Below are positions 12,219-36,981 of a DNA stretch of 64,000 bases, in pieces. The position numbers and the translations under genes were made by a program. Source of the stretch: Flavobacterium eburneipallidum (GTDB lineage: Bacteria > Bacteroidota > Bacteroidia > Flavobacteriales > Flavobacteriaceae). Where the stretch lies: positions 2,046,001-2,110,000 of the forward strand of contig NZ_CP114291.2 of NCBI RefSeq assembly GCF_027111355.2. Reading direction: 5' to 3'. Under the pieces are notes generated by a model. That model was not told where the DNA came from, made no database searches, and was given only the letters and a program-made list of their open reading frames with translations. Position 1 is the stretch's first letter. Every line of letters begins with the position of its first letter.

Positions 12219-12222
12219 CAAA

Positions 12223-16905: not shown

Positions 16906-17049
16906 AAAAATTAAATCCTATTTCCCTTTTACACTTTTAGATTAGAAAATAACTAATCAACCTATCACCCCACCTATTACTTACATAGAGTGGCACATAA
17001 TATATTGTGTATTTCTAACGAATAAAACAGTATTAAATTAGAAAACTAT

Positions 17050-20068: not shown

Positions 20069-20374
20069 ATGGCAATCGAAGTTATTACTCGCGAAGATTT
20101 AAACGAATTCCGTACACTTCTTCTTTCCGATTTAAGCGAAATACTCAATTCAAAACCACAACAGCAAAAACAATGGCTCAAATCTACAGAGGTTAGAAAG
20201 TTGTTAAATATTTCTTCAGGTACTTTGCAAAATCTCCGCATCAACGGAACATTGACCTACACCAAAATTGGCGGAATCATTTATTACGCATACAGTGATT
20301 TAATGAAAGTATTAGAAGAAAATAAAGTGGATGCGACAGTTACTTTATTCAATCCAAAATGGTTAGTACGATGA
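20069..20374 (+). CDS. Excisionase-like helix-turn-helix protein
   Basis: The 101-aa protein has a MerR/HTH_17-type domain at about 34-85 (WLKSTEVRKLLNISSGTLQN then LRINGTLTYTKIGGIIYY). This is the helix-turn-helix type that is standard near integrases and replication genes of Bacteroidota mobile elements, where such proteins act as excisionases or copy control factors. Its stop overlaps the start of the next gene as ATGA (20371-20374), showing translational coupling. Confidence 0.85.
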   Translation: MAIEVITREDLNEFRTLLLSDLSEILNSKPQQQKQWLKSTEVRKLLNISSGTLQNLRINGTLTYTKIGGIIYYAYSDLMKVLEENKVDATVTLFNPKWLVR

Positions 20375-21234: not shown

Positions 21235-21240
21235 CAAACG

Positions 21241-21365
21241 TGCTCAAAGTCCCTCTCCTTTGGAGAGGGATTTAGGGTGAGGAAAATCTGCGATAATCCT
21301 TCTAATCTGTGGCTAAAAAAAAGCTTTGTGAACTTTGTGCTTACCCTTTGTGCCCTTTGTGGTTA
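21241..21365 (+). repeat. Flavobacterial dispersed intergenic repeats
   Basis: The gap holds a stem ccctctcctttggagaggg (21253-21271) followed by atttagggtgagg, then a row of CTTTGTG repeats (21331-21361). Both sequence types occur as dispersed non-coding repeats in flavobacterial genomes. Here they sit between two genes of one operon. Confidence 0.45.
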
Positions 21366-21378
21366 AATTTTTAAACTT

Positions 21379-22005
21379 ATGGAAACAGAAATACAATCCC
21401 ATTATAACTATCCCGATATAATCCTTTGGCTCGAAAAAAAAGGAGTTGAATTATACGGAAATCATTTCAAAATCCTAGAAACTGATTATACTATAATTTA
21501 CAAACTCATTGCCTATTTCGTCAAGGATGAAGCAACTTGTTTTCAATACAACATCAATCTCAATAAAGGAATTCTACTTTCTGGCACCGTTGGCTGTGGC
21601 AAAACATCGTTAATGAATTTAATGAAACACCTCACTCCTTCTGATCATAAGTTTTTCGTAAAACCGTGCCGAGATATCAGCTTTGAATTTATTCAGGATG
21701 GCTACCAAATCATTCATAAATACAGCAAAGGAAAGCTATACGAATCAGAACCCAAAACAATATGTTTCGACGATTTAGGAACAGAAAACAATCTAAAGTA
21801 TTACGGAAACGAATGTAACGTAATGGCAGAAATTCTATTAAGTCGGTATGATATTTTTACCTCAAAAAAAATCCAAACGCATATTACTACAAACCTTTCG
21901 GCAAGTGAAATTGAGAATGCTTATGGGAATCGAGTACGAAGCAGATTAAGAGAAATGATTAATTTGATTGCGTTTGAAAGAAATATTATGGATAAAAGAG
22001 TTTGA
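21379..22005 (+). CDS. DnaC-like P-loop ATPase
   Basis: The 208-aa protein has Walker A GTVGCGKTS at residues 69-77, Walker B CFDDLGTE at 129-136 and a late Arg motif (GNRVRSRLREM). This is the pattern of small AAA+ helicase loaders related to DnaC/IstB. It follows the HTH and winged-helix genes and completes a three-gene replication-type block seen in Bacteroidota elements. Confidence 0.8.
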   Translation: METEIQSHYNYPDIILWLEKKGVELYGNHFKILETDYTIIYKLIAYFVKDEATCFQYNINLNKGILLSGTVGCGKTSLMNLMKHLTPSDHKFFVKPCRDISFEFIQDGYQIIHKYSKGKLYESEPKTICFDDLGTENNLKYYGNECNVMAEILLSRYDIFTSKKIQTHITTNLSASEIENAYGNRVRSRLREMINLIAFERNIMDKRV

Positions 22006-22104: not shown

Positions 22105-23322
22105 ATGACAGACAGAACAGCAACTGATACAATTAAAGGATATTTTTATCAATTTGATTTAGCTATACTTAAATTATTGCAATTAGATGATGACTCACAC
22201 GAAATTATAGTTGAAGGCATTGAGGATGTTGATGTAAAAAATGCAACTGAAGAAATAGCTATACAATGTAAATACCACGCTAAAACTGAATATAATCATT
22301 CGGCTATTGCCAAACCAATACAGCTTATGCTTGACCATTTTAAGCAAGTTTTAAATGGAAAAGAGAAGAAAATAAAATATTTATACTTCGGTCATTTTAA
22401 ATCAGGACACGAAAGATTTCCATCTTCAATAACATTAGATTTTCTAAAGTCTAGCTTACTGACTTATAAAAAAGGTAAGATTGAATATAAACACTATGAA
22501 GACTTAAAATTAAGTGATATAGAATTAATGTCGTTTTTAGAAACTTTAGAAATTGAAATTAATGCAAAATCGTATGAAGAACAACTTAAAGAAATTTTCA
22601 CTTCTTTAAAAAATCAAAACATTTTCAATTGCGACGATTTTGAGGCTGAAAATTTCTACTATAATAACGCATTAAAAATTATTAGCAATCTTGCCAAAGA
22701 GAATGATTTAGCCAATCGAAGAATAACAAAAAAAGATTTTTTAGCTCAAATAAATTCTAAACAAGTACTTTTTCATAAATGGTTTATTCAATTTAAAGGT
22801 AAAAAGAAATTACTATCGGATGTTAGAGCTAAATATTTCAGTGATTACAATAATTCTCCATTTGAAAGATTCTTTCTAATAGAAGTGAGTTCAAGTAATT
22901 ATTTGCGAAGTGATTTAAAATCTATAATTCATTTAACCTGTAAAAAATATTCACAACTTTCAAAATTAAATCCAGATTCTTTTTGTCCATACATCCACAT
23001 ATTTGGATTATCAAATTCAGAATTAATTGAATTAAAAACAGAACTTATTAGCGAGAATTTTAAATTTAAAGATGGTTTTGATTTTAACGGTTCAAGTTTC
23101 AACCCAAAATCAATTATAGAAAAAGCTACTTTTCATAATGGAATTAAAATTAAAATAATAGATGATTTAAAACACATCGAATCAGTTTTTAATGAAATCT
23201 CAAAAACCAAAGAAGTTTATCATTTCTATTTCGAAACTCCTTTCTTTTCGACATCAAATGCAAGTATAAAGCACATACAAATTCAAATACAAGAAATTAA
23301 CGACATCAAAAATATAATCTAA
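22105..23322 (+). CDS. DUF4297-type nuclease of a HerA defence pair
   Basis: The N-terminal part of this 405-aa protein (about residues 8-140) is a PD-(D/E)xK-like nuclease module: GYFYQFDLAILKLLQ, an acidic EGIEDVDVK at about 37-45 and IQCKYH at 53-58, which supplies the Q-x-K. It matches the dsDNA nuclease domain (DUF4297, as in Cap4). The C-terminal 250 residues are unassigned. The next gene, a HerA-type ATPase, begins inside its stop (TAATG). Paired DUF4297 and HerA genes are a known anti-phage arrangement; activity here is inferred. Confidence 0.75.
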   Translation: MTDRTATDTIKGYFYQFDLAILKLLQLDDDSHEIIVEGIEDVDVKNATEEIAIQCKYHAKTEYNHSAIAKPIQLMLDHFKQVLNGKEKKIKYLYFGHFKSGHERFPSSITLDFLKSSLLTYKKGKIEYKHYEDLKLSDIELMSFLETLEIEINAKSYEEQLKEIFTSLKNQNIFNCDDFEAENFYYNNALKIISNLAKENDLANRRITKKDFLAQINSKQVLFHKWFIQFKGKKKLLSDVRAKYFSDYNNSPFERFFLIEVSSSNYLRSDLKSIIHLTCKKYSQLSKLNPDSFCPYIHIFGLSNSELIELKTELISENFKFKDGFDFNGSSFNPKSIIEKATFHNGIKIKIIDDLKHIESVFNEISKTKEVYHFYFETPFFSTSNASIKHIQIQIQEINDIKNII

Positions 23323-25097
23323 TGGTAGAAGACAAATTAAATGCTGAAGTAATTGCAGTATTCCCAAACAAAGTAAAAATCAAGGTTGACAAACTTGAAG
23401 ATTTCAGGATAGCCAACGAATCTTTGAGAGTTGGTTCTTATCTCAAAATTTATGGAAATGACAATGCTATATTAATGGCAATTATTGAAAATTTCTCGAT
23501 TGATGTTTCAGAGAAAAATAATGAAGCTGTTAGAACACATATTGTCGAAGCAAGTCCATTGGGAATAATAAAAAATGGTAAATTTACAAGAGGTGGTGAC
23601 GATTTAACCATTCCTCCCAAAAAAGTCGAACCAGCAACAGAAGAGGAAATCAAGAAAATCTATATCGAATCTGTAGAGGACAAAGAACAATTTACTTTTT
23701 GTTCATTATCTTCAAATGCAAACATTAGAATTCCAGTAAATGGCAATAAATTTTTCAATAAGCATATTGCAATAGTTGGTTCAACAGGTTCAGGTAAATC
23801 TCATACATTATCTACTATCATACAAACGGCTGTTAATTCTAAAAGTGGAGATTTTAGTTTAAATAATTCACACGTAATAATTTTTGACATTCATTCCGAA
23901 TATAAATCAGCTTTTCCTAATGCTAATTTTATTGATATTGAGAATTTAAAATTGCCATATTGGTTACTAAATAGTGATGAACTAGAAGAAGTGCTTCTAG
24001 ATACTGGAGAGAGAGATAATTATAATCAATCTTCAGTTTTTAGAAAATTGGTTACCGAAAATAAGAAAAAGCATAATCCTGATAAAACAAAGATATTTTA
24101 CGATTCTCCTTTGTTTTTTGACATAAATGAAGTTCAAAATGCATTATATAACTTAAAGAATGAAACAAAAAATTCTAAAAGTTCAAATCGATATATGATA
24201 GTTGATGATTCTTATGCTTGTAATGATAGTAGTACAACTGTTGATACTGGAATATTACTAAATGAAGAACAGCGAATAGATAAATATTTTAATGAAGAGT
24301 TTCAATTTCATCCAACTAAAAATCAGAATATAACTAAAGGAGATTATGCGGAAGGTACTTTAGATAAATTTTTTGTAAGATTTCAAGAAAAAATAAATCA
24401 AGACCGTTTAACTTTCTTATTTGGTGAAGAATCAAAAAAGATTTCTTTCGAAGATACATTGAAAAATATTTTAGGATATAATTCAAATTCCAATGTTACA
24501 GTAATTGATTTAAGCGGAGTGCCTTTTGAAGTATTAAGTATTACAGTTTCTTTAATTTCAAGAATTGTATTTGAGTATGGTTATATCTACAAAAGATTGA
24601 GAAATAACATTAATCCAAATGAAAAAATCAATAATGACATTCCAATACTTTTAGTTTATGAGGAAGCACATAAATATGTTCCCAATAGCGATTTAGTAAA
24701 ATATAGATCTTCAAAAAAATCAATCGAAAGAATTGCCAAAGAGGGTAGAAAATATGGAGTTACTCTGTTATTAGCAAGTCAAAGACCTTCAGAAATATCA
24801 GAAACTATATTTTCACAATGTAATAATTTCATTGCGATGAGATTAACTAATCCGGTTGACCAAGGTTATGTTAAAAAATTACTTCCAGATAGTTTAGGTT
24901 CATTGATTGAAAAAATGCCTTCTCTAAAACAAGGTGAAGCTTTATTAATTGGTGAATCTGTTATTTTACCCTCAATTGTTCAAATAGACAGATGTACGAA
25001 CGAACCTTCGTCAAATGATATTCCGTATTGGGAATTATGGAAAGAGGAATGGAAAGATATGGATATTGACAAAATTAAAGAGGAATGGTATAAATGA
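23322..25097 (+). CDS. HerA-type hexameric ATPase/translocase
   Basis: The 591-aa protein has an N-terminal HAS-barrel-like region (1-110), Walker A GSTGSGKS at about residues 153-160, Walker B with catalytic Glu in ILLVYEEAHKY at about 441-451 and a sensor region (LLLASQRPSEISETIFSQCN) with an arginine-finger-like NFIAMRLTN. This is the HerA/FtsK-like DNA translocase family. The one-base overlap with the upstream nuclease gene shows co-translation. The pair probably forms a nuclease-translocase complex for defence. Confidence 0.9.
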   Translation: MVEDKLNAEVIAVFPNKVKIKVDKLEDFRIANESLRVGSYLKIYGNDNAILMAIIENFSIDVSEKNNEAVRTHIVEASPLGIIKNGKFTRGGDDLTIPPKKVEPATEEEIKKIYIESVEDKEQFTFCSLSSNANIRIPVNGNKFFNKHIAIVGSTGSGKSHTLSTIIQTAVNSKSGDFSLNNSHVIIFDIHSEYKSAFPNANFIDIENLKLPYWLLNSDELEEVLLDTGERDNYNQSSVFRKLVTENKKKHNPDKTKIFYDSPLFFDINEVQNALYNLKNETKNSKSSNRYMIVDDSYACNDSSTTVDTGILLNEEQRIDKYFNEEFQFHPTKNQNITKGDYAEGTLDKFFVRFQEKINQDRLTFLFGEESKKISFEDTLKNILGYNSNSNVTVIDLSGVPFEVLSITVSLISRIVFEYGYIYKRLRNNINPNEKINNDIPILLVYEEAHKYVPNSDLVKYRSSKKSIERIAKEGRKYGVTLLLASQRPSEISETIFSQCNNFIAMRLTNPVDQGYVKKLLPDSLGSLIEKMPSLKQGEALLIGESVILPSIVQIDRCTNEPSSNDIPYWELWKEEWKDMDIDKIKEEWYK

Positions 25098-25123
25098 TAA
25101 AATAACACAGTAATCAAGAACAA

Positions 25124-25163
25124 TTAACCTTTGGCAAAAAATCAATATTTTGCCAAAGGTTAA
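25124..25163. terminator. Perfect 16-bp hairpin after the HerA gene
   Basis: The arms 25124-25139 and 25148-25163 are fully complementary around an 8-nt loop. There is no long T tract, so it may act as a transcript end or barrier in both directions between the HerA pair and the AbiE pair. Confidence 0.65.
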
Positions 25164-25254
25164 CAATAGCTTATTTCTTAATATTTAACTCAATACTTTC
25201 AATTGTATAGAAAAAACACTTCCCTTTAAATAGTGTCTATTTATATAAAATCTA

Positions 25255-25313
25255 TATATTTGTTCATATTTTTTATTTGTTCACGAATAATGAACATAAA
25301 CAAATAATGAACA
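25255..25313 (+). promoter_or_regulatory. Symmetric four-half-site operator of the AbiE operon
   Basis: TGTTCA at 25261-25266 and 25279-25284 mirrors TGAACA at 25291-25296 and 25308-25313, all centred on about 25287. The left-most half-site overlaps a -7 element TATATTTG at 25255-25262. AbiEi antitoxins are known to bind inverted repeats in their own promoter, and this fits that mode. Confidence 0.65.
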
Positions 25314-25328
25314 TAAAGAATTTTTACA

Positions 25329-26327
25329 ATGAATGAAATAGAAATTTTAAATAATGCAATTCATAATTTAGAGAAAAATGTTCCAATAAATTGGGACTGG
25401 AAAACTGTTGATTATAACAAGGATAAAGGAGTTGATGGAGAATTAAGCATTATTCTAAACAATCAAAAAAAAATATTTTTTGTTCAGATAAAGAAAGATG
25501 TTAAAAACCATCAATTATTTAATATTCTTAATTATAAAAATAAATTCACCAATTTTTTATTAGTGGCAGAAAAATTATATCCAAAAGTAAAAAAAGAGCT
25601 TCGGGAAAATAGAGTAAACTATCTGGAAGGCAATGGGAATGTATATATTAATACAGATGATTTGTTTCTATATATTGATACGAATGAAGTTGCTAAAACC
25701 CAAAAGGAAAAAGGAAATAGAGCATTTACTAAAACGGGATTAAAAGTAATTTTTCAGTTTCTAATAAAACCAAAATTAATCAATCAAACACAACGTGAAA
25801 TTGCAGAAATAACGAATGTCGCATTGGGTAACATTCCTTTAATTATAAATGGATTATTGGAAACTAATTTAATAGTAAGGCTAAATAAAAATGAATATGT
25901 AATCAATAATTATGAAGAATTATTAAACAAATGGATTACTGAATTCGAACAAACGTTGAAACCTACCCTTTTCAAACAACGATTTAGATTTCAAAACAAA
26001 GATAAAGATTGGAAAACCGTACCGTTAAATACCGATAAAACAGTTTGGGGAGGAGAACCTGCTGGGGATATAATAACCAACCATTTACGTCCAGAAAAAT
26101 TTACTCTTTATACAAAAGAAACAACAAAAGACCTAATACTAAATTATAAACTATTGCCAGATGATAATGGAGAAATAACAGTCTATGATATGTTTTGGAA
26201 TAATGAGTACAACACTAATACGGCACCAAAAGAATTAGTATATACCGATTTAATGATTACAGATGACAAAAGGTGTAAAGAAACTGCAAAATTAATTTTC
26301 AATGAACATATCCAACCAAACCTATAA
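25329..26327 (+). CDS. AbiEi-family antitoxin of a type IV toxin-antitoxin system
   Basis: The 332-aa protein has an N-terminal segment (about 10-70) resembling a restriction-endonuclease fold (KGVDGELSIILNNQKKIFFV with QIKK). A winged-helix region (about 140-205, TQREIAEITNVALGNIPLII) and a C-terminal domain with TVPLNTDKTVWGGEPAGDII follow, typical of Bacteroidota AbiEi-like antitoxins. Its 3' end overlaps the toxin gene by 26 bp. A symmetric operator lies just upstream. The antitoxin should counter the AbiEii nucleotidyltransferase without binding it. Confidence 0.75.
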   Translation: MNEIEILNNAIHNLEKNVPINWDWKTVDYNKDKGVDGELSIILNNQKKIFFVQIKKDVKNHQLFNILNYKNKFTNFLLVAEKLYPKVKKELRENRVNYLEGNGNVYINTDDLFLYIDTNEVAKTQKEKGNRAFTKTGLKVIFQFLIKPKLINQTQREIAEITNVALGNIPLIINGLLETNLIVRLNKNEYVINNYEELLNKWITEFEQTLKPTLFKQRFRFQNKDKDWKTVPLNTDKTVWGGEPAGDIITNHLRPEKFTLYTKETTKDLILNYKLLPDDNGEITVYDMFWNNEYNTNTAPKELVYTDLMITDDKRCKETAKLIFNEHIQPNL

Positions 26328-27144
26328 AGAACTAGCCATACCATACTTCAAAGAAATTTTTGATTGCATTGATGAAATAATGATCAAACTAAATGTACCT
26401 TATTATTTAATCGGGGCAAGTGCAGTAGCCTTAAACCTTTTACGAAAAGGTATTAAACCAAGTAGAGGTACAAAAGATATCGATTTTGCAATAATGATTT
26501 CTTATATTCAAGAGTTCGAATCAATTGTGGAAGAGCTTGTCAAATTTGGATTCAACAAAGTGCAAGCACCTTGGACACTTTACCATCCCAAATTTAATAC
26601 CGTCATTGACTTAATGCCATTTGGAGAAATTGAAGAAAAATTCACAGTAAATTTCAATCAGCGTCACACCTATTTACACGTATTAGGACTTACTGAAGTG
26701 TTACAAGAACCGGAAACAATTAAGATAGAAGAAAAATCTTTGCAAATTCCATCATTACCAGGAATGGTTATTTTAAAACTAATTGCTTGGAGCGATAGAC
26801 CTGAAGATCGTGGTAATGATTTGTATGATATTTTAAGAATTATAGAACATTATTTCGACTTAAATTTTGATGAAATAGTAGAACACCATTTTGATACTTT
26901 TCCAAACGATGATAAACTAGACCAGTTTAAAATTGCAGCAAGAGTATTAGGACGAAAAGCGAGCCATTTTTTAAATGTTTCCAAAGCAATAAACGACAGA
27001 ATCCTAAAAACCATTAATGAAAACATTGTGAATGTAGAGAAGTCAGCAATCGCAAAACAATGGATTAGAGATAAAGACTGGGACTTAAAATATGCTGTTG
27101 AAATACTGGAGGAATTAAAAAAAGGGTTGACAGAAATAAAATAG
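26302..27144 (+). CDS. AbiEii-family nucleotidyltransferase toxin
   Basis: The 280-aa protein has the nucleotidyltransferase pattern GASAVALNLLRKGIKPSRGT then TKDIDFAI with the D-x-D metal site at about residues 62-64, a further Asp in NTVIDLMPFG, and the LKLIAWSDRPEDRGNDLYDI segment of AbiEii/AbiGii proteins. Family members stop growth by transferring nucleotides to cellular targets. It overlaps the antitoxin gene by 26 bp and is followed 32 nt later by the TOTE-type gene. Confidence 0.85.
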   Translation: MNISNQTYKELAIPYFKEIFDCIDEIMIKLNVPYYLIGASAVALNLLRKGIKPSRGTKDIDFAIMISYIQEFESIVEELVKFGFNKVQAPWTLYHPKFNTVIDLMPFGEIEEKFTVNFNQRHTYLHVLGLTEVLQEPETIKIEEKSLQIPSLPGMVILKLIAWSDRPEDRGNDLYDILRIIEHYFDLNFDEIVEHHFDTFPNDDKLDQFKIAARVLGRKASHFLNVSKAINDRILKTINENIVNVEKSAIAKQWIRDKDWDLKYAVEILEELKKGLTEIK

Positions 27145-27176
27145 TTTTAGAGTTTTACAATAGCTGATAATGAATT

Positions 27177-30176
27177 ATGCCATCAAGTCAAATAAATAAA
27201 ATCCAACTTTTCAAATCTGTGTTTTCAGGAAGAGAAGATGTGTTTGCGGTTCGTTGGGAGAAAGGGAATAAAAGTGGCTATATGCCTGCTTACTTTTATG
27301 ACCCATATCGGTATCGAGCTCATAAAATAAATGGGGGAACTTTTCAAAATTATGCAGAAAAAGAATATTTACCATTCACTGAAAAAGAAATTGAAAAACA
27401 TCTTAACGGCGAACAACATATTGGAATTTATCCTTTGCTCAAAGACAATACCTCGTGGTTTATTGTTGCAGATTTTGACAAAGTGGAATGGATTGATGAC
27501 TGTAAAAAGTTTATAAATGCTTGCAATGAAAAAGGAATTTCTGCCTATTTGGAACGTTCTCGTTCAGGTAAAGGCGGGCACGTTTGGATATTTTTTGAAC
27601 AACCCTATCAAGCTATAAAAAGTAGAAAGATTTTTATTTCAATTTTAGAGCAAACAGGTGTTTTTTCTTTATTTGACAAAAGTTCTAGTTTTGACCGAAT
27701 GTTTCCCAATCAGGATTTTTTGTCTGGAAAAGGATTTGGAAATTTGATAGCACTTCCGTTGTATAAGAAAACTTATGAACAAAGAAACAGTTGTTTTATT
27801 GATGTTGAAAGTTTTGAACCAATTCCAAATCAATGGGATTTCATAAAAAATATTCAAAGAATTTCGATAATAAAATTAGATGAATTATACCAAATTCATA
27901 ATACACTACAAAATATTCCTGTTTCGATTATACCCAAATTATACAATGAAAAATTAACGATAAGATTAGCAAATGTTGTAAAAATCAATCGCAATGCTAT
28001 TTCAACACAACTAATAAATTTTCTAAAAGAAGAATTGAATTTTCTGAACACCGAATTTTTAATAAAAAAGAAGATTGGGAAAAATACTTTTGGAACAGAA
28101 CGGTATTTCAAATTGGTTGAAGAAACGGAAAACAAAATCTTAATTCCTAGAGGTTTTATTGGTAAAATAATTCGCTTTTGTAGAGAAAATAATATTGAAT
28201 ATGATTTCAAGGATGAAAGAAAAAAGTTAAAAGAGGTTTCTTTCTTATTCAATGCACAACTCCTAGAACACCAGCAAACTGTGATTGATGCAATTGCCAA
28301 GAAAGATTTAGGAGTAATTGTTGCGCCTCCAAGTTATGGAAAAACTATCGTTGGACTAAAAATTATTGCAGAGAAAAAGCAACCAGCATTAATCATCACT
28401 CATCGAAAACAAATTGCCGACCAATGGATGGAAAGAATTGAAACTTTTCTTGGAATTCCCAAAAATGAGATTGAAAAAATTGGTCAAGGAAAAATCAAAA
28501 TCGGTAAGCAAATAACGGTTGCAATGATTCAAAGTTTGTCAAAAGAATTGGAGAAACCCGATGGCGATAAACTTTTAAATGCTTTTGGGACGATTATTCT
28601 GGACGAATGCCATCATATTCCGGCGGAAACATTCAGAAATACAATTTCGAAATTACAAACCTATTATTTGTTTGGGTTGACCGCAACACCATTCCGAAAA
28701 TATAATGACAGTAAATTGATTTTTATACATTTAGGCGAAGTGATTTCCGAAATAAAATCTAACGAAATAAGCACCTCAAAAAAACCGAAAATCATTATTA
28801 GAAACACAGAACTAGATGTTCCTTTTAATTCAAAAACGGACAAATTTGAAACGTTATCAAAAATTCTAGTTCACGATTCTACTCGAAACAAAGTAATCCT
28901 TGAGGATGTTACCAATGAATTAAAATCGGACAAAAAAATCATTATTATTACGGAACGCAAAGAACATATTGACTCGCTTTATCAATATTTAAAGCAATCT
29001 TACGAAGTGATTACCTTGAGTGGAGAAGATTCTGAAAGCAGTAAAAACTCAAAATGGAAATTGCTAAAAGAAGGAAATTATCAAGTGCTAATTACCACAG
29101 GACAATTCTTTGGAGAAGGAACCGATTTGCAAAATGCTAATTGTCTTTTTTTAGTTTATCCGTTTTCTTTTGAAGGAAAATTGATTCAATACATCGGTAG
29201 AGTACAACGTTCAGAAATAACGCCAACTATTTATGATTATCGTGATGGTAAGATTGATTATTTAAACAAAATGTTTCTAAAAAGAAATGTCTATTACAGG
29301 AAAATTGACAAACAAGCTACTTTATTTGATGAACCCGAAGAAGAAATTATTGTTTCCAAAAATACTTTTATTCTTGATAAAAAAGTAAAGATTCCATTTG
29401 AACTACTTGAATTCCGTTACGGAAGTATAGCTTTTAAATATGAGGTTTCAGAAATGAAAACCGAGCTTGAATTTGATATTGAAAATTTTGAAATAAGACC
29501 CGAATTTGAAGTTTTAAAAGTTTATTTTTCCAAAACACTCAAACTGAAAAACATCTCAATTTCTATTCACGCTGAATTCGAAGACGGAAAACTCATTTCA
29601 CAATTGGCATTATCCAATGATATAGAAAAGATAACCAAAGAATTGATTGAAAGTGTAAAGTTTAAATTTGTAGCCAAGACTTTCTTGGGTAAACAAAATC
29701 CAGTTGGTCAAGAAAATTTACTCAATATAAATCAATTACAAAATGAAAATAACATCAAATTATATGATTCTGGAGATGAATTATTAAATGATTTTTTACA
29801 GAATCAAAATTACAAACACCAAACTCATTTACAATATTTAGCCGAACATCACGAAAGAAGTATTCTTAAAATCCGATTTGTATTGAATCCATTTTCATTT
29901 GTTTTTCTTCTAGCAGGAAAGACAGGATTTCATATTGTTTTAGAAACCTTAAATACTGAAGAAGCAACTTATATTTGGCATTTTGATAATGAGAAAAAAT
30001 CGCTTCCGGATAAATTAAAACAAGTGGATAGCTACTTAAATACCATTAGAAATGATGGAAGACAATCTTTTATAGAAAATCCTCCTAATAATTTTAGTAG
30101 AATACTTCACGATTATTCAGCTGACAGAAAAGGTTTTGTAATTTGGAAAGATTTGATTGAGGAAAGACTTACTTGA
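27177..30176 (+). CDS. TOTE-type primase-helicase conflict protein
   Basis: The 999-aa protein has residues 1-250 as an archaeo-eukaryotic primase domain of the TOTE type: FSGREDVFAVRWEKG, the metal motif VADFDK at about 98-103 and SGKGGHVWIFFEQ. Residues 355-700 form a superfamily II helicase: motif I APPSYGKT at about 382-389, DECH at about 475, TATPF and motif VI YIGRVQR at about 670. The C-terminal 300 residues are a further domain. TOTE modules are predicted invader-response systems on mobile DNA and often have extra nuclease or polymerase partners; none is next to this one. Confidence 0.85.
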   Translation: MPSSQINKIQLFKSVFSGREDVFAVRWEKGNKSGYMPAYFYDPYRYRAHKINGGTFQNYAEKEYLPFTEKEIEKHLNGEQHIGIYPLLKDNTSWFIVADFDKVEWIDDCKKFINACNEKGISAYLERSRSGKGGHVWIFFEQPYQAIKSRKIFISILEQTGVFSLFDKSSSFDRMFPNQDFLSGKGFGNLIALPLYKKTYEQRNSCFIDVESFEPIPNQWDFIKNIQRISIIKLDELYQIHNTLQNIPVSIIPKLYNEKLTIRLANVVKINRNAISTQLINFLKEELNFLNTEFLIKKKIGKNTFGTERYFKLVEETENKILIPRGFIGKIIRFCRENNIEYDFKDERKKLKEVSFLFNAQLLEHQQTVIDAIAKKDLGVIVAPPSYGKTIVGLKIIAEKKQPALIITHRKQIADQWMERIETFLGIPKNEIEKIGQGKIKIGKQITVAMIQSLSKELEKPDGDKLLNAFGTIILDECHHIPAETFRNTISKLQTYYLFGLTATPFRKYNDSKLIFIHLGEVISEIKSNEISTSKKPKIIIRNTELDVPFNSKTDKFETLSKILVHDSTRNKVILEDVTNELKSDKKIIIITERKEHIDSLYQYLKQSYEVITLSGEDSESSKNSKWKLLKEGNYQVLITTGQFFGEGTDLQNANCLFLVYPFSFEGKLIQYIGRVQRSEITPTIYDYRDGKIDYLNKMFLKRNVYYRKIDKQATLFDEPEEEIIVSKNTFILDKKVKIPFELLEFRYGSIAFKYEVSEMKTELEFDIENFEIRPEFEVLKVYFSKTLKLKNISISIHAEFEDGKLISQLALSNDIEKITKELIESVKFKFVAKTFLGKQNPVGQENLLNINQLQNENNIKLYDSGDELLNDFLQNQNYKHQTHLQYLAEHHERSILKIRFVLNPFSFVFLLAGKTGFHIVLETLNTEEATYIWHFDNEKKSLPDKLKQVDSYLNTIRNDGRQSFIENPPNNFSRILHDYSADRKGFVIWKDLIEERLT

Positions 30177-30223
30177 GTACTATTATAACTTAATTACAAG
30201 CCTAATCTTCATACATTTTATAA

Positions 30224-30260
30224 AAAAAAGCAGTTTTACTTTGTGTAGAACTGCTTTTTT
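30224..30260. terminator. Bidirectional terminator
   Basis: A 12-bp stem (aaaaaagcagtt 30224-30235 with aactgctttttt 30249-30260) has A and T tails on both sides. It ends the plus-strand TOTE gene and the minus-strand small gene at 30265. Confidence 0.8.
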
Positions 30261-30264
30261 AAAA

Positions 30265-30426
30265 CTATTTAATTGCTTTAGCAACTAATCCAACGGCAAT
30301 AAACAAACCTGCTGTGATTGCAATAGCTTCCAAAACTTCTGCAGCTTCATCATAAACTGTAATACAGTTATTTTTGAAACAAACAGTTGCTTTTTTTACA
30401 GGTTTAAATCTTATAATGTTTGACAT
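30265..30426 (-). CDS. Small hydrophobic-tailed protein
   Basis: The 53-aa protein (MSNIIRFKPVKKATVCFKNN at the start) has a basic N-terminal part, then VYDEAAEVLE, and ends in a hydrophobic helix (AIAITAGLFIAVGLVAKAIK). It is bounded by terminators on both sides (30224-30260 and 30451-30478). No family recognised. Placement between a TOTE gene and a PIN operon suggests a defence-linked role but does not prove one. Confidence 0.5.
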   Translation of the reverse strand: MSNIIRFKPVKKATVCFKNNCITVYDEAAEVLEAIAITAGLFIAVGLVAKAIK

Positions 30427-30450
30427 AAAAATTATATTTTATCGATTAAA

Positions 30451-30478
30451 CAAAAGCATAGCACTAATAGTGCTATGC
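30451..30478 (-). terminator. Terminator for the small gene at 30502
   Basis: Stem gcatagcact (30456-30465) with agtgctatgc (30469-30478), followed on the minus strand by TTTTG. Confidence 0.7.
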
Positions 30479-30501
30479 ACCTAACTACTCTGGAAAAAGA
30501 A

Positions 30502-30675
30502 TTACTTCTCTTTCGTAACACCTTTAAACGGTGTGCCATCCTGCTTAACATCCATAAAACGACCAGTATCAGCATCACGCTTTACCCACTGTTCTGTTTT
30601 TGGATTATAAGTCTGGCTACGGTCTTTAACCGCACCATTTCGATGACCATCACCAACTTTACCATTTTTTGCCAT
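30502..30675 (-). CDS. Conserved small basic protein (GDGHRNGAVKDRSQ type)
   Basis: The 57-aa protein starts MAKNGKVGDGHRNGAVKDRS and contains YNPKTEQWVKRDADTGRFMD, a pattern I recognise from widely scattered short proteins of unknown function in mobile regions of many bacteria. It has no membrane segment and is rich in Gly and Lys. It has its own minus-strand terminator at 30451. Confidence 0.65.
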   Translation of the reverse strand: MAKNGKVGDGHRNGAVKDRSQTYNPKTEQWVKRDADTGRFMDVKQDGTPFKGVTKEK

Positions 30676-30766
30676 TGCATATATGATTTAGTGCAACCAA
30701 ACAATTTGAAATTGAGGTGTTTGGCTAAAAACCCAAGGAATAATTAGGTAATAAAAAGAATTCTAT

Positions 30767-30849
30767 TACTTTTGCAGAAGAAATCAAATACCCTCCAAAG
30801 TTTTAATTTCAACTGACCGAAGCGCTATTCCAGTTTGCTTCGGTTATTT
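30767..30849 (+). ncRNA. Candidate short transcript with promoter and terminator
   Basis: A TACTTTTG -7 element at 30767-30774 is followed by 40 nt without an ORF and by a hairpin accgaagc (30816-30823) / gcttcggt (30837-30844) with a T run. A short plus-strand RNA ending inside the 3' end of the PIN gene would be antisense to its last codons. This rests on signals only. Confidence 0.35.
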
Positions 30850-31371
30850 TTTTAATTTTTCATAAGCTGTAATACTATCTATATTACGAATTAGTTTACT
30901 GTCTTTTAATTTTACTTCTTTTATAAAATCATCGCATTCTAATTCGCTCATAATCTTTAATTTATAAGCCTCTAACAAAATATCCATTGTGGTCAAGTAA
31001 ACAATATTATACTCCTCACAATACAGTCTAATATCTTTTAAATTACTACTTGCTATATAATCATTTGTATTTCTTGCAACCGCCATACAAGCAGCTTCTC
31101 CATTACCTACAATTTTTTTAAGTCTTGAATATTCTTTAATTATTTCAATTTTATTAGGTATTGGTATCACATCAATTTTTGTGTATTCAATAAAATTACC
31201 TACAGGTATTTTATTGCTAGGTCTTGCCATCAATTCTTCAAAAACTTTGTCAAGAATAACAAACCGACCAGGAAATATTTTTGGCAAAAGTAATTGCTTA
31301 CCTGCTTTTATAAAATGGATAATGACATCACAATCCAATAATATTTTTGGATCATTAGATTTCTTTGTCAT
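30844..31371 (-). CDS. PIN-domain ribonuclease toxin-like protein
   Basis: The 175-aa protein shows the PIN-fold acidic pattern: ILLDCDVIIHF with Asp near residue 13-15, a Glu in VFEELMARP, GNGEAACMAVARN and ASSNLKDIRL. These would form the metal-dependent RNase site. It is the last gene of a three-gene minus-strand operon and overlaps the ImmA/IrrE gene by 17 bp. PIN proteins are typical VapC-type toxins; here the partner appears to be the XRE/metallopeptidase pair and not a small VapB. Confidence 0.8.
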   Translation of the reverse strand: MTKKSNDPKILLDCDVIIHFIKAGKQLLLPKIFPGRFVILDKVFEELMARPSNKIPVGNFIEYTKIDVIPIPNKIEIIKEYSRLKKIVGNGEAACMAVARNTNDYIASSNLKDIRLYCEEYNIVYLTTMDILLEAYKLKIMSELECDDFIKEVKLKDSKLIRNIDSITAYEKLKK

Positions 31372-32098
31372 CTTCCTTATTATTTAAATTGTCAATATCA
31401 ATATTAATATCAAACATTAATGAGAGATAATGACTTTCCGAAATCTTATCTTTATCAAACAATTCTTTTGCTTTTATTCCATAATTTCCAACAACTTTAA
31501 ATTCGTCAGTTTTACTATACAATCTATCCGAATATCCGTGTTCAATAGCACTTTTTTTAACATCATTTTTATAATTAGAATAATCCGTTCGCAGCAAACC
31601 TATTTTATCTAATCGTATTAAAAGTGCGGTTCTTGAGACACCAAAGTATTGTTCTAATTTGATAATTGTTGCCAATGAGATTTCTCCACCCCAAGCCAAC
31701 TCTTCTTCTGGAATTTGTTTTATTATTCCAACTTCCGGCATTAAAAAATAGGAACTAAAAATATCCGCATTATATTCCTCTCTATCTTTCTTATCAAACT
31801 TCCCAGTTTTACACATTTTAAAACTAAAACCTTCTTGAATAAATAAATGATACAATTCGTGTCCAATAGTAAAATGCTGTCTACCGATAGGGTTTTTAGT
31901 ATTAATCATCATAAAATTACTGCTTCGAGTTCGCAATGCCATTCCAGAGAATTCTCCATTCAATGGTTTAAAAACAGTTAGCACATCAAGTGATATTAAT
32001 AATTTTTCAAAATCAATAGCACTATCATCACTGATACCGCATTGACGCCTAAATTTATTGGCCCTTACTTCTAGTATTTTATCATTAAATGCTACCAT
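31355..32098 (-). CDS. ImmA/IrrE-family metallopeptidase
   Basis: The 247-aa protein has the zinc motif HELYH (His80, Glu81, His84) in FTIGHELYHLF, with the supporting acidic segment EEYNADIFSSYFLMP downstream, as expected for COG2856. Such peptidases usually cleave a partner XRE repressor. The XRE gene overlaps its start by 14 bp and the PIN gene its end by 17 bp, so the three are co-translated. Confidence 0.9.
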   Translation of the reverse strand: MVAFNDKILEVRANKFRRQCGISDDSAIDFEKLLISLDVLTVFKPLNGEFSGMALRTRSSNFMMINTKNPIGRQHFTIGHELYHLFIQEGFSFKMCKTGKFDKKDREEYNADIFSSYFLMPEVGIIKQIPEEELAWGGEISLATIIKLEQYFGVSRTALLIRLDKIGLLRTDYSNYKNDVKKSAIEHGYSDRLYSKTDEFKVVGNYGIKAKELFDKDKISESHYLSLMFDINIDIDNLNNKEDDKEI

Positions 32099-32426
32099 AC
32101 AAATTATTAATCTTCAAATAGTTTTTTACAATTTTACCAAAAGCCGCCATATTATCCATATCATCATTATCCATATCGTCTTTTCTAAAGGCAAAAACAA
32201 CTTCGGCAAGTGCATCATCAACATTATCAACAAAAAAGACATCTAATTCAACACCAAACAAATCTGATAATCTCTCTAAAACATCAAGTGGAATTTCTCT
32301 ACTTTCATTTTCATAAAAACTTATCATTTCTCGTTTTATTCCTAAATAATTTGCGACTTTATCTTGTGTGTATCCATATTTTTCTCGCAAACCTTTTATT
32401 ACTAATCCTGTTGTTGCTTCCACCAT
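32085..32426 (-). CDS. XRE-family repressor
   Basis: The 113-aa protein has a lambda-repressor-type HTH at residues 8-62 (LREKYGYTQDKVANYLGIKR) and a C-terminal tail rich in Asp (KDDMDNDDMDNM), a likely cleavage or contact region for the metallopeptidase encoded next. It is the first gene of the XRE / ImmA-IrrE / PIN operon. A minus-strand -7 element TATCTTTG lies at 32477-32484. Confidence 0.9.
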   Translation of the reverse strand: MVEATTGLVIKGLREKYGYTQDKVANYLGIKREMISFYENESREIPLDVLERLSDLFGVELDVFFVDNVDDALAEVVFAFRKDDMDNDDMDNMAAFGKIVKNYLKINNLYGSI

Positions 32427-32484: not shown

Positions 32485-32736
32485 CATATTTTTTTTAAAT
32501 TACATATAATTGTACAAAAAGTTATTCATTGAAATATTTAAAACTGAATATTTAAAAACAACCCATTATCTCATTCAGCTGCACAAAAATTGCTCCTAGT
32601 CCAAATATTCCTAGCGTCAATGCTGCCGCTTGCTTCATTTCACTAATTCCATTTGTAAAAACGAGAATATTCTTTTTTCGTTCGGTTATAAAAAGACGTT
32701 TTACATTTCATAAGCCACTCCTTTGCCAACGCTCCA

Positions 32737-32805
32737 AAAGTTTTTGTACGCCCTAGAACGTTTACGGTTCGAAAGAAAATTTACTGGTAGGGCAACAAAA
32801 ACTTT
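32737..32805. repeat. Hairpin 1 of the array
   Basis: Arms 32737-32754 (aaagtttttgtacgccct) and 32789-32805 (agggcaacaaaaacttt) pair with one mismatch and one bulge. Confidence 0.6.
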
Positions 32806-32814
32806 CCCCAAGCT

Positions 32815-32907
32815 GTGTTACATAATTGAGTATTATAATTCATTACAAAGCTTTGTTATTGTTTTTTTGTTTTTGCAATGAAGTTATAATATCATTTATG
32901 TAAAACA
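32815..32907. repeat. Hairpin 2 of the array
   Basis: Arms of about 35 nt (32815-32850 and 32871-32907) pair along TTACATAA, TGA, ATTATAA, TTCATT and CAAA blocks, with a few mismatches. Confidence 0.6.
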
Positions 32908-32928
32908 GCCGCCACACCCAACGCGCAA

Positions 32929-33008
32929 GGGGTTTGCTCCAGGACAACTTTTTGAGCAGCTCCCATCGCATCACCCAGCCGCTCAAAAAACCGTCCTTCA
33001 CAAACCCC
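32929..33008. repeat. Hairpin 3 of the array
   Basis: Nested complementary blocks in order: ggggtttg/caaacccc, aggac/gtcct and tttttgagc/gctcaaaaa. It is the GC-richest hairpin of the array. Confidence 0.6.
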
Positions 33009-33119
33009 AATCATCGCTTCGATTCAACTTTATTATTAAAGAGAATATTTTATTTTCATAAGAACGTATCAATAATGGTTTTAGCAACAAACCGCATAAA
33101 TCGGTAGTGTTTGCATTGC

Positions 33120-33198
33120 TTTTGTAAGTGCCAAAAATAGCAGTAACTTTTTCTATAATTTACAAATTTTTATTTTGCTATTTTCGGCACCCACAAAA
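33120..33198. repeat. Hairpin 4 (family A, copy 1)
   Basis: The arms 33120-33142 and 33176-33198 pair through ttttgtaagtgccaaaaat and its partner ending cggcacccacaaaa. It is a relative of hairpin 6, with the same ends TTTTGTAAGT and ACCCACAAAA. Confidence 0.7.
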
Positions 33199-33209
33199 CC
33201 AAAAATGCC

Positions 33210-33405
33210 AGCAAGAGTGTGATTTTTTATTTGCCAGAAAATAAGAAGTAATTGTTTTCACGATGGCCAAGATGCCATAGCAATTTCATAGCACATTCTT
33301 TGGTAACCGAAAATTTAATTATTCCAAGAACGTTTGTGGCATCAAGCCATCATAAAAACAATCAGAAACACCCCAGTAAGCAAATAAAAAACCACACACT
33401 TGCCT
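33210..33405. repeat. Hairpin 5 (family B, copy 1), arms about 68 nt
   Basis: The outer blocks gtgtgattttttatttgc (33217-33234 region) and its partner gcaaataaaaaaccacac pair. The inner blocks attgttttcacgatggcc and gatgcca (33251-33277) pair with 33337-33362. The whole forms one long imperfect stem. Confidence 0.65.
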
Positions 33406-33446
33406 GCGCTTCTGCCTCATCGCACTCGGAATTATCTTTTCATTGT

Positions 33447-33526
33447 TTTTGTAAGTATTGAAAATCACTTGAAACTTTTCGATAAGATTAAAAATATTGG
33501 AAAAGTGATTTTCAATACCCACAAAA
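33447..33526. repeat. Hairpin 6 (family A, copy 2)
   Basis: Arms 33447-33470 and 33503-33526 pair through ttttgtaagtattgaaaatc and its complement with partner ends gattttcaatacccacaaaa. Where hairpin 4 has gcc/ggc it has att/aat, so the stem is conserved while the bases change. Confidence 0.7.
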
Positions 33527-33536
33527 TCAAGTACAA

Positions 33537-33622
33537 GAAAGAGTATGAAATTTTAAAGCAGAAAAATAATAGGAATGGATTTGATATTTCTTTTTTCTGC
33601 TTTAAAATTTCATACCCTTTCT
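33537..33622. repeat. Hairpin 7 (family B, copy 2), perfect 24-bp stem
   Basis: Arms 33543-33566 and 33592-33615 are perfectly complementary (gtatgaaattttaaagcag and onward), extended outward by imperfect pairs. Its left arm aligns with the left arm of hairpin 5. Confidence 0.7.
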
Positions 33623-33731
33623 GAAGAACTTCTATCTTCCGAATCAACTTTTTTAGCCCCCATTTCATAAGAAGTTTATCGGTCACGAGGAAAATAAAAA
33701 AATAAATAAAAAGAAAGTAAAGGTAAGCTCC

Positions 33732-33898
33732 AGTTTCAAGAAAAGAAAGTTCAAGCCCTACGGGTTTTCAATAAAATCTCCACCCTACGTTTTCGTTTCG
33801 CTTCAACATTTGCTTTAAATCAAATCCACATTTCCGAACAACTTTATCGTAAAAACCCGGGTAGTATTTTTTTGAAAAAACTTGCTTTTCTTGAAACC
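33732..33898. repeat. Hairpin 8 of the array
   Basis: Outer arms 33732-33751 (agtttcaagaaaagaaagtt) and 33879-33898 pair; inner blocks ctacgggtttt and aaaacccgggtag also pair, with an insertion on the right arm. Confidence 0.55.
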
Positions 33899-34000
33899 TC
33901 CACTTGTGAGATGACTTTCTTTTTTTTTCTTTTTTTTCTTTTAAAAAATTTCATAAGCTGCTTGTGGTAGCAAGGCGAATCATTTTAAAAAACCGAAAGT

Positions 34001-34423
34001 ATGCTAAATTTTATCATTAAAACACACCAAAAAAATACGCTTTACACCAAACCCCATTTGTTTATACTTAACAAAGGGATGAACAGCGGTAAGCCACAAA
34101 AAGAGCCATTTACGAACAGTTTTGTAGTCATTTTTCAAAATGAAGAAGATTGTGAAAGTTTATATTTTGTGGCTTACAGCTTATGGAAAACCAAGTTTTG
34201 GCATCCTTTTTTAGTGGGTTCGGTAATTCCATTTTTACGCCTTCCAAATTTTTCAAAAGAATTCAATCTAAAAGCCAGTTTGATGATGCAGGAACACGAA
34301 GAACATCAAAAAAATATTGCAGCTCTTAAACTTTTGGAGAGAAAAGAAAAGCAATTTCACGAGAACATCAATCTTATCAATGACTTACGCAAAACCATTT
34401 TATACAGGTATTGCAGAAAATAA
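34001..34423 (+). CDS. DUF6943-like protein
   Basis: The 140-aa protein has the pattern LNKGMNSGKPQKEPFTNSFV then YFVAYSLWKTKFWHPFLVGS and VIPFLRLPNF, which I associate with a family of unknown function in flavobacterial mobile elements (DUF6943). The C-terminal 45 residues are a charged helix. No signal peptide or membrane helix. It directly follows the hairpin array and precedes a 59-aa gene by 22 nt. Confidence 0.6.
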   Translation: MLNFIIKTHQKNTLYTKPHLFILNKGMNSGKPQKEPFTNSFVVIFQNEEDCESLYFVAYSLWKTKFWHPFLVGSVIPFLRLPNFSKEFNLKASLMMQEHEEHQKNIAALKLLERKEKQFHENINLINDLRKTILYRYCRK

Positions 34424-34445: not shown

Positions 34446-34625
34446 ATGAAACTATTTATTTTGTACCAAACCGACAATTGGAAGTCCAAAGCATCAAGAG
34501 TGTGTTTTGGAGTTTTCGACACCAGAGCCAAAGCTATTGACAGCGCAAAATGGCAAGAATTATACAATCACAATTCAGAAGTGGTAGTTTTAGAAGTTAC
34601 GCTTAATCTATTTGAAGAAGTTTAA
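34446..34625 (+). CDS. Small cytosolic protein following the DUF6943-like gene
   Basis: The 59-aa protein starts MKLFILYQTDNWKSKASRVC and continues with a beta/alpha-looking FGVFDTRAKAIDSAKWQELY. The longer reading from 34317 overlaps the upstream gene and carries out-of-character sequence, so the ATG at 34446 is preferred. Probably co-transcribed with the gene at 34001. No family recognised. Confidence 0.6.
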   Translation: MKLFILYQTDNWKSKASRVCFGVFDTRAKAIDSAKWQELYNHNSEVVVLEVTLNLFEEV

Positions 34626-34708: not shown

Positions 34709-34885
34709 CTATTTTTTGTGCTTCTTGATTAAAATTTTGAGTACTAAAGATATTGTAAAACTAACAATCGCACCAACAGTAGCTAATACAATTGTTTTCA
34801 AAACATCCTCCGAATGTAAATTCGGTAAAACACTCAAAAATGTACCGCCAGCGGTACCAATTACAGTCGAATTACTGTGTTCCAT
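34709..34885 (-). CDS. Small membrane protein, last gene of the cassette
   Basis: The 58-aa protein (MEHSNSTVIGTAGGTFLSVL then VLATVGAIVSFTISLVLKIL) has one clear C-terminal membrane helix with a Lys-rich tail (KKHKK) and a weaker hydrophobic N-terminal stretch. Its start lies inside the end of the upstream 72-aa gene (14-bp overlap). The holin-like layout is suggestive only. Confidence 0.6.
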   Translation of the reverse strand: MEHSNSTVIGTAGGTFLSVLPNLHSEDVLKTIVLATVGAIVSFTISLVLKILIKKHKK

Positions 34886-35090
34886 CGGCTTTTTCGGTTG
34901 TCAATTGGCTAACTGCCGAAATAACACCTCCAGCAACCGCCAAATAACCTGCTACCGATGTAATAATGACTGGCAACGCAATTGGTGTTGCTAAAACAGT
35001 TCCGCCAACGGCGGCCAATGCCAAACCAATATTTCGAAGCACTTTGAAAAATTTTGGAGTTGGAGCTTTCGCTCTTTTTATTACATTCAT
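34872..35090 (-). CDS. Small hydrophobic protein with two helices
   Basis: The 72-aa protein has a basic start (MNVIKRAKAPTPKFFKVLRN) followed by two Gly/Ala/Val-rich hydrophobic segments (about 22-40 and 42-60). It overlaps the 58-aa gene by 14 bp and lies 12 nt downstream of the DUF5675 gene. Size and layout resemble small phage holins; the family is not recognised. Confidence 0.6.
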   Translation of the reverse strand: MNVIKRAKAPTPKFFKVLRNIGLALAAVGGTVLATPIALPVIITSVAGYLAVAGGVISAVSQLTTEKADGTQ

Positions 35091-35102: not shown

Positions 35103-35498
35103 TTAAGATTTAACAATCAATTCAATACTTTCGCCTTTATCCAAAGCTTTATAAACCAATTCTTTTAATTTAGCAAAAGCTTTTCGAGACATCAGCCCTA
35201 AACCTGGTCCAGAAAGTTTCGTTACTGGAGCAATACAACCATTCAATTCTAATAAAGCATTATTGGCAGGATGAAATAGAATTAGACTTCTGTTTTTTAC
35301 TTTCAAAACCTCCAAATGCCATTGAAATTTCTTGCTGTATCGTTTTTTTATCAAATATTTCCCTTCCGGAATGCAGGAAACTTTCGTTTCGTTATTTTTC
35401 CAAGGCAATTCAATGGTATTACAGGTGAATTTACCCTCGCATTCGAGTCTACCATTCGTTCCATCGGGGAAATAAGTTCTAGTTATCGAGAAAACCAT
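35103..35498 (-). CDS. DUF5675 family protein
   Basis: The 131-aa protein shows DUF5675 hallmarks: a start like FSITRTYFPDGTNGRLECEG, TIELPWKNNETKVSCIPEGK, the conserved His/Asn in LFHPANNALLELNGCIAP and GLGLMSRKAF. DUF5675 is frequent in phage-derived and mobile cassettes of Bacteroidota; I cannot assign a biochemical activity. Its ATG overlaps the upstream stop by one base (TAATG). Confidence 0.8.
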   Translation of the reverse strand: MVFSITRTYFPDGTNGRLECEGKFTCNTIELPWKNNETKVSCIPEGKYLIKKRYSKKFQWHLEVLKVKNRSLILFHPANNALLELNGCIAPVTKLSGPGLGLMSRKAFAKLKELVYKALDKGESIELIVKS

Positions 35499-36256
35499 TA
35501 TACACCGCTATCTACTTTCACAATCGATAATGGATTGTAAGAGCCATTTTTTAACGCATACATTTGACCATTTACCTCTTGGTAAAACTCCACTCCCAGA
35601 GCCAAAAACAAAGGTTTGGTACTGGCAGGAGTTACAGGATTTGAATGATTAATAGCAACCGAAGGATTGATATCCCAAGGCAAAATAGCCGTTTCTGAAT
35701 TGGAAGCAACAAAAGTTTCAGCTTCAAAATCAATTTCTGCACCTGCAGAAATAACTTTATAATGAGTAGCTCCACTAGGTGCAGCAATCATATTCAAAGG
35801 AACAAACGAAGCTAAATCAACAATAATATCACCCGTTACACGGTTGATAGTTGCCACAAAAGGAGCAAACAAGGTAGTCCCTAGTTTTCCACCAATGTTG
35901 AATTCAAAACCTGCTAAAAGTTCGGCTTCGCCATCAATTATATTTCGCAACCCTCTAACACTAGTGGTGTCAGCTTGGATAACTTTAACCATTTGTTGCG
36001 TCAAACGACTAACCATTCTACTGTCCGCAGAATTCAAAAGCAAGGCTCTAAATGCTGTTCTCAAAATCTTTCCAGCTTTTCCCGCTCGACCAAATTCAGA
36101 ACCATTTTCACGTGTTCTTTGAAACGCAGGATCGCTCGCAATTCTGCTCGCATCAATGCCGCCTTTTTCACGTGCCAAATGACCATCTTTGGTTTTGTAA
36201 AAAGTAATATCTCCGATAGTACCTTTCAATTTAATTATGCCTTTCTGTCTTGCCAT
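35498..36256 (-). CDS. Uncharacterised 252-aa cassette protein
   Basis: The protein starts MARQKGIIKLKGTIGDITFY followed by KTKDGHLAREKGG, a beginning I have seen in uncharacterised Bacteroidota proteins. The middle is helical (RENGSEFGRAGKAGKILRTA) and the C-terminal half is beta-rich, with Thr/Ser/Pro segments. No signal peptide or membrane helix. It is the first gene of the four-gene minus-strand cassette and probably sets its stoichiometry. A structural, phage-like role is speculative. Confidence 0.7.
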   Translation of the reverse strand: MARQKGIIKLKGTIGDITFYKTKDGHLAREKGGIDASRIASDPAFQRTRENGSEFGRAGKAGKILRTAFRALLLNSADSRMVSRLTQQMVKVIQADTTSVRGLRNIIDGEAELLAGFEFNIGGKLGTTLFAPFVATINRVTGDIIVDLASFVPLNMIAAPSGATHYKVISAGAEIDFEAETFVASNSETAILPWDINPSVAINHSNPVTPASTKPLFLALGVEFYQEVNGQMYALKNGSYNPLSIVKVDSGV

Positions 36257-36523: not shown

Positions 36524-36727
36524 ATGAAAATACAAATTAAGAGAATATGTATCTATCCAAAAGACATTGAACGCATCACAGGCAAGAGTTACAGACAAAG
36601 CGCTCGAATGTTGCAAGCCATCAGAAAGAGCCTGAATAAGCTTGAAAATGAGTTAGTAACCATTGAAGAGTTCTGCCAGTATGCAGGTTTGAAAATTGAA
36701 CAAGTAGAACCGCTAATTTTTGGATGA
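36524..36727 (+). CDS. Small conserved DNA-binding-like protein
   Basis: The 67-aa protein (IKRICIYPKDIERITGKSYR then QSARMLQAIRKSLNKLENEL and EEFCQYAGLKIEQVEPLI) has two short helical units resembling HTH segments and matches a type of short protein common in flavobacterial genomes. It is followed by a hairpin terminator at 36773. It lies between the DUF5675 cassette and the right end of the island. Confidence 0.65.
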   Translation: MKIQIKRICIYPKDIERITGKSYRQSARMLQAIRKSLNKLENELVTIEEFCQYAGLKIEQVEPLIFG

Positions 36728-36950: not shown

Positions 36951-36981
36951 GAGGATTAAGTTCTAATCCCTCATCGCCCAC
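36951..36981 (+). other. tRNA/tmRNA 3'-end-like fragment
   Basis: The stretch ends in TTCTAATCCCTC then ATCGCCCAC, shaped like a T-arm plus the 3' strand of an acceptor stem. The matching 5' strand (gtgggcg) is absent within 80 nt upstream, so it is not a complete gene. It may be a remnant left by integration into a tRNA or ssrA gene. Confidence 0.3.

Follow-up and report, generated by a model that had tools for sequence, protein, structure and literature searches.

At the entry end of conjugative elements, genes such as ssb are expressed from Frpo hairpins that form in the incoming strand (PMC9849209, PMC11541004), and PMC9849209 reports no rise of downstream reporters when F is transferred without Frpo1 or Frpo2. 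Frpo-like sites are described for many leading regions in PMC11541004, the main text of which, as far as available, contains no occurrence of the term ‘bacteroid’. The F plasmid is the system in which these promoters, which act on single-stranded DNA (ssDNA), were characterized. The present study concerns a candidate for a counterpart in the Bacteroidota, a non-coding array of long hairpins in a 64,000-nt stretch of the Flavobacterium eburneipallidum genome (contig NZ_CP114291.2, positions 2,046,001 to 2,110,000). This stretch is here called the window, and coordinates are positions within it; G000:C1 denotes the contig of the own genome, and L-numbers denote related loci.

The array is located at the right end of a 37.0-kb island, just 5' of a DUF6943 gene (34001-34423, plus strand; PF22105, E-value 1.5e-55). 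Our analysis suggests, with a probability of roughly 55%, that it is a cis-acting control region of this mobile island which would work when the island's minus strand is single-stranded, namely as an ssDNA promoter or priming region of the Frpo or ssi kind. As in those systems, a non-coding hairpin region lies upstream of presumed early genes, the fold would belong to the transferred strand, and ssb occurs among the neighbours (PMC11541004, PMC9849209). The locus differs from them in its Bacteroidota host, in its nine hairpins with a three-way-junction core (termed R3), in that no -35/-10 pair was found, and in carrying DUF6943 in place of known anti-defence genes.

Nine hairpins with a fold kept by selection

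The original prediction placed a non-coding hairpin array at 32737-33899. This stretch is indeed non-coding, and inverted repeats were confirmed at the positions noted for its long hairpins, but the limits needed correction: the array runs to ~33941, and its full extent is 32564-33941 when a conserved 84-nt element at the left edge is counted (32737 to ~33941 without it). On the minus strand, alignment, RNAalifold and covariation delineate H1 (32737-32806), H2 (32812-32909), H4 (33116-33202), H5 (33207-33409) with the inner hairpin H6 (33249-33364), H7 (33443-33530), H8 (33537-33621) and the nested H9 (33691-33941), which has a pyrimidine tract in its right arm. H3 (32931-33016), delineated by alignment and a model termed R2, has a conserved GAA/UGGA internal loop and 21 uninterrupted minus-strand pairs. 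The two related two-hairpin units that had been proposed are present at an offset of ~327 nt and have their ends in common (H4 and H7, each with the left arm of the next hairpin), and both are also visible in the consensus of relatives. The hairpin following the first unit, expected at 33210, exists as H5, but it closes only at 33409 and encloses a further hairpin.

Related loci were taken as the best 80 of 180 DUF6943 relatives from a scan of genome contigs. Of these, 71 had 1.5 kb upstream and, together with the window, L037 and L040, yielded 74 upstream regions, or 73 after reduction, which were aligned; four of the 73 are without the array. Nine hairpins recur across the alignment, and RNAalifold predicts one and the same set of hairpins for either strand, with 247 common pairs. 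Under a null in which substitutions were moved along the tree, covariation is significant in 33 of 325 structure pairs, spread over every hairpin; in a control with the 3' partners slid by 1-8 columns, 0-6 pairs scored above 50. For H3, a MAFFT alignment of 16 sequences has 98.8% of cells paired and two-sided change in 18 of 27 pairs, and the covariation score of 0.538 compares with 0.068-0.127 for slid partners. Folded singly, H3 of the window and of L136 share a run of 21 minus-strand pairs despite different sequences, and the plus strand is interrupted in both. Of 69 sources, 68 have H3 on the minus strand according to the R2 model, which was itself built from 16 of them. The hairpins of the array are real, and it is their fold, not their sequence, that selection has kept. 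This agrees with what had been read from compensating base changes in the window: such changes hold with the 73 aligned regions, and the search for homologues returned relatives in which the covariation persists once more copies are aligned.

The own genome carries a second copy of the same 1.26 kb, at 89% identity. Since these two copies differ by just one two-sided compensation, the case for compensation comes from the more distant copies. A DNA search with the array in 60 genomes, the own included, gave a match in 26, several as short pieces only.

Folded mobile repeats or decaying palindromes, a reading to which the two related units lend some colour, are most improbable. The order and place of the hairpins are constant in the islands, the stems are compensated, and the covariation contradicts decay. 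The position of the array, upstream of DUF6943, is fixed, and R2 matches in the own genome are confined to the two island copies (two on the minus strand and a weak one on the plus strand at the same place). The motif TTTCATAAG, whose fourfold recurrence had been singled out, is not conserved and finds no support: at 32706, 33054, 33663 and 33949 it is kept in 4, 4, 8 and 1 of 69 regions, respectively (window included).

The folding strand and the R3 core

Among the 247 common pairs, read on the plus strand, a standard pair changed to A.C 349 times and to G.T 147 times. Single-step changes of paired bases numbered 276 and 129, respectively, so that the excess is 2.1-2.4-fold over both counts, and it is seen via both mutational routes (123 versus 52 and 153 versus 77). 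Its sign is the same in every hairpin, with H7 being even (12 versus 11). Unpaired columns are near strand-symmetric (G>A 6.30 versus C>T 6.14; A>G 3.75 versus T>C 4.30). Because A.C on the plus strand is G.T or G.U on the minus strand, and because the excess is found at paired positions while unpaired ones are symmetric, the minus strand of the array is the folding one, and it is single-stranded when it matters. The p-value of 2e-13 for this bias is a guide only, since the changes counted share a single tree and are therefore partly dependent on one another. The folding z-score of the 1.3 kb in the window is -17.9 for the minus and -12.9 for the plus strand, compared with -4.0 to 0.2 for three control stretches from elsewhere in it, of which two are coding and the third is partly intergenic (25 shuffles each throughout). 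By this measure the better strand is not always the minus strand, as in L110 (plus -14.1, minus -11.8) and L143 (plus -3.4, minus -2.2).

The strand bias does not tell RNA from ssDNA. The main rival explanation, appreciable though rather unlikely, is a large structured non-coding RNA of ~1.25-1.4 kb, transcribed leftward from the DUF6943 side, which would act in a ribonucleoprotein, with DUF6943 as a possible partner, or as a protein sponge. It is favoured by the minus-strand fold with its conserved wobble pairs, three of which are consecutive in H3 in 13-14 of 16 sequences, and by the motif GGAG, which occupies six minus-strand places, partly at unpaired columns, and none on the plus strand; each of the six has it in 34-68 of 68 sequences (five rows left out). 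The long C-terminal helix in the predicted DUF6943 model also speaks for it. The large RNAs GOLLD, ROOL and OLE, the first two of which are associated with mobile elements, likewise have a large conserved fold; the array differs from them in being a string of separate long hairpins with no Rfam match and no known transcript. Rfam 15 gave no family at gathering score in the window and only one tRNA in the related loci (L151); 49 sub-threshold matches belonged mostly to microRNA families. No description of the array was found among the papers listed on Flavobacterium structured RNA, the F. psychrophilum transcriptome, GOLLD/ROOL, islands, satellites or ssDNA promoters. Were it an RNA, it would rank among the larger structured bacterial RNAs and be tied to an island family that we did not find described.

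The last hairpin, H9, contains R3, a 100-nt three-way-junction core (33748-33882, minus strand) recognized by alignment and model search and common to the leaders of other mobile-element genes. The middle of H9 also matches two further places in the own genome and other genera. An alignment of 21 segments gave a three-way-junction fold with two-sided changes in 13 of 31 pairs, and the resulting model was searched against 345 genomes of the class, of which 30 (own included) gave a total of 58 matches; 21 of these matches are adjacent to DUF6943. The same class sample holds 31 DUF6943 loci above the family cut-off, two sub-threshold matches being left out. R3 is found up to 1.5 kb upstream of DUF6943 in 20 of these 31, at a distance of 105-361 nt and in 20 of 20 cases on the opposite, that is, the template strand. 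Of the 37 matches away from DUF6943, 17 were examined, and the next open reading frame (ORF) lies on the opposite strand in 12 of these, so that, as with Frpo, R3 is on the template of the downstream gene. Ten proteins scanned from these other loci comprised two SSB, two PcfK, one PcfJ, one RadC, one HTH and one AAA protein and two without a match; one of the two PcfK genes is the third ORF after R3. The array is the leader of DUF6943 in these islands, and R3 is common to the leaders of other genes, including ssb, PcfK/PcfJ and RadC.

Both extra R3 copies of the own genome (starts 2858480 and 2317085) precede ssb and a gene whose product is presumably DUF932-like. This genome has only two traM genes, with starts at 2851019 and 2309501 and hence at distances of 7.5 and 7.6 kb to these copies, and its sole PF03432 relaxase, at 2294098, is 23 kb from one of them.

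A possible promoter or priming region on the incoming strand

Among the functions originally considered for the array, working as ssDNA fits best. We favour an ssDNA promoter or priming region, and not a free RNA, because the strand is the right one, the R3 neighbours are suggestive and no ordinary promoter box was found. A TAnnTTTG box did not recur upstream of DUF6943 in a linear search of 71 loci (maximum of 3 per 10-nt bin). According to the proposed mechanism, the island would enter a new cell as ssDNA, probably helped by a co-resident conjugative element, and the minus strand would be the one transferred. The array probably folds in this strand, the template of DUF6943, which on arrival would form a string of hairpins. 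The H9 duplex might then recruit RNA polymerase, with a start near the base of H9 and transcription reading right into DUF6943 and the adjacent gene for p59, a 59-aa protein; both could be early establishment or anti-defence genes. The remaining hairpins may protect the strand or prime the second one. More tentatively, the mobile elements of Bacteroidota could share a so far undescribed ssDNA promoter with R3 as its core, which in defence-carrying islands would have expanded to a 1.3-kb hairpin string; when the island enters a new cell, this string would fire DUF6943, which would have an establishment or anti-defence role. If so, R3 would be a sequence tag for the early genes of islands and conjugative elements in Bacteroidota and could thereby lead to anti-defence genes not yet known, and it would hint at how defence-loaded islands establish themselves.

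Several findings weigh against this interpretation. The island, for which transfer is itself inferred, has neither a PF03432 relaxase, the one relaxase family searched for, nor a recognized origin of transfer. Neither the folded duplex nor a linear search yielded a -35/-10 pair. A string of nine hairpins is much larger than the known Frpo sites of ~0.3 kb. At the threshold used, 11 of the 31 DUF6943 loci in the class sample lack R3, the second island of the own genome among them; away from DUF6943, the next ORF is on the same strand as R3 in 5 of 17 cases, and SSB, PcfK and RadC stand next to R3 in few loci only. The preference for G.U or G.T suits RNA at least as well as ssDNA. Lastly, only three column pairs pass the strict corrected threshold over all column pairs, all three of them stem pairs.

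It is improbable that the array is a double-stranded or single-strand replication origin, or a packaging signal, of the excised island with no promoter role. Its fixed place in the island would fit such a function, long hairpins do occur in replication origins, and an HTH_17 gene and an AAA gene (20069-22005) could be a replication module. A distant DUF6943 (34% identity; L173:9962-10408) downstream of a head maturation protease on a 38-kb viral contig would also agree with it; the DNA upstream of this copy is mostly coding and has no such array. However, a double-stranded signal would show no strand bias, and R3 recurs before unrelated genes. In addition, neither DUF6943 nor the conserved 252-aa protein of the island's right end had a match in 50,697 phage records, and 72,556 plasmid records gave none for DUF6943. 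The array resembles the single-strand origins of rolling-circle plasmids, which are primed by RNA polymerase, in having long imperfect hairpins on one strand; no rolling-circle initiator was identified here, and none was searched for.

The island, its genes and the 84-nt element

The island occupies positions 1-36981 of the window and has an insert size of 37,002 bp. It is inserted in a tRNA-Val gene identified by ARAGORN and bounded by a 21-base att pair that has two mismatches: on the left, the junction coincides with the 3' end of this tRNA-Val(tac) gene (G000:C1:2045959-2045979), 22-42 bases before the window begins, and attR, the 21-nt right copy of this end, lies at 36961-36981 (plus strand). 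The native tRNA terminator is found right of attR, and the same terminator follows a second, uninterrupted tRNA-Val gene. A tyrosine integrase is encoded at 251-1492 (plus strand) in two frames (251-514 and 572-1492; Arm-DNA-bind_5; Phage_int_SAM_5 and Phage_integrase). With an integrase, albeit split, and a duplicated tRNA 3' end both present, this is a tRNA-inserted genomic island, and the association with integrases that had been suggested for the array holds. The right ends of 52 loci carry an exact 13-14-nt tRNA-Ser or tRNA-Val 3' end in 38 cases and any of four tRNA-end-like patterns in 45, with none in 7. Copies of the tRNA-Ser 3' end at 2360604 and 2401660 flank the second island of the own genome, and the intact tRNA-Ser is at 2244585. 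In the region G000:C1:2244585-2401676, this 41-kb island comes after a 116-kb stretch that holds the relaxase together with R3-ssb and one traM, and the elements are probably in tandem.

Downstream of DUF6943, on which no literature was found, are the genes for p59 (34446-34625, plus; 42/80 loci), two small proteins of 58 and 72 aa, hydrophobic by eye (34709-35090, minus; 58/80 and 74/80), a DUF5675 protein (35103-35498, minus; PF18925; 55/80), the 252-aa protein, which has no family match (35498-36256, minus; 71/80) and at least 7,028 relatives among the 7,998 candidates listed, and a 67-aa protein (36524-36727, plus; 52/80). The genes for the 72-aa, DUF5675, 252-aa and 67-aa proteins occur together downstream in 49 of the 80 loci; 13 have a right end of another type, which includes an SNase gene, and 10 contigs are too short to tell. 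The 80 loci are mostly from Flavobacterium, with Flavobacteriaceae or Bacteroidetes metagenome-assembled genomes, two Mariniflexile and one Confluentibacter. DUF6943 is present in 66 of 199 genomes of the genus (own included), often several times. In L174 (9415-19378), an island-like module with SNase, a relative of the 252-aa protein, DUF6943, a structured leader, HipA and restriction genes lies beside Mu-like phage genes; the fold of this leader is the more stable one on the strand opposite DUF6943 (-397 versus -316 kcal/mol, without shuffles).

The 84-nt element (32564-32648, minus strand) has two copies in the own genome, each island having one; that of the second island is 5.7 kb from the array, with cargo in between. 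Of 199 genus genomes, 52 carry the element, and DUF6943 is present in 44 of these 52. The element also favours minus-strand wobble (26 versus 6 cells). The stop codon of a plus-strand ORF lies 0-60 nt before it in 26 of 45 cases, compared with 5.3% for random places. The element may be the far hairpin of the array region, a terminator or a recombination site. With integron attC sites, which are short imperfect inverted repeats with an inner hairpin, it shares this layout and the preceding ORF stop; it differs in that the own genome has one per island and not one per gene, and IntI was not searched for.

The cargo at 22105-32426 is defence-like and includes DUF4297 with HerA, AbiEi/AbiEii-like proteins, a TOTE primase-helicase, and HTH with M78 (CapP-like). 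Non-defence cargo at 1-17922 comprises several short-chain dehydrogenases, AraC regulators, DoxX-like proteins and a phospholipase A1. In L120, L052 and L164, pieces of the array with 84-nt elements are repeated between cargo blocks, and L120 (2006-10420) has two island right ends in opposite orientation a few kb apart; both are signs of cargo turnover at the array edge. The island cargo of L123 (~2225-2600) and L094 (~2470-2770) encodes a protein of ~92 aa with a hydrophobic segment after the N-terminus, and the same start is found in L090; we take this N-terminus to resemble that of Cas9 (RuvC-I motif), and the protein could be a Cas9 mimic.
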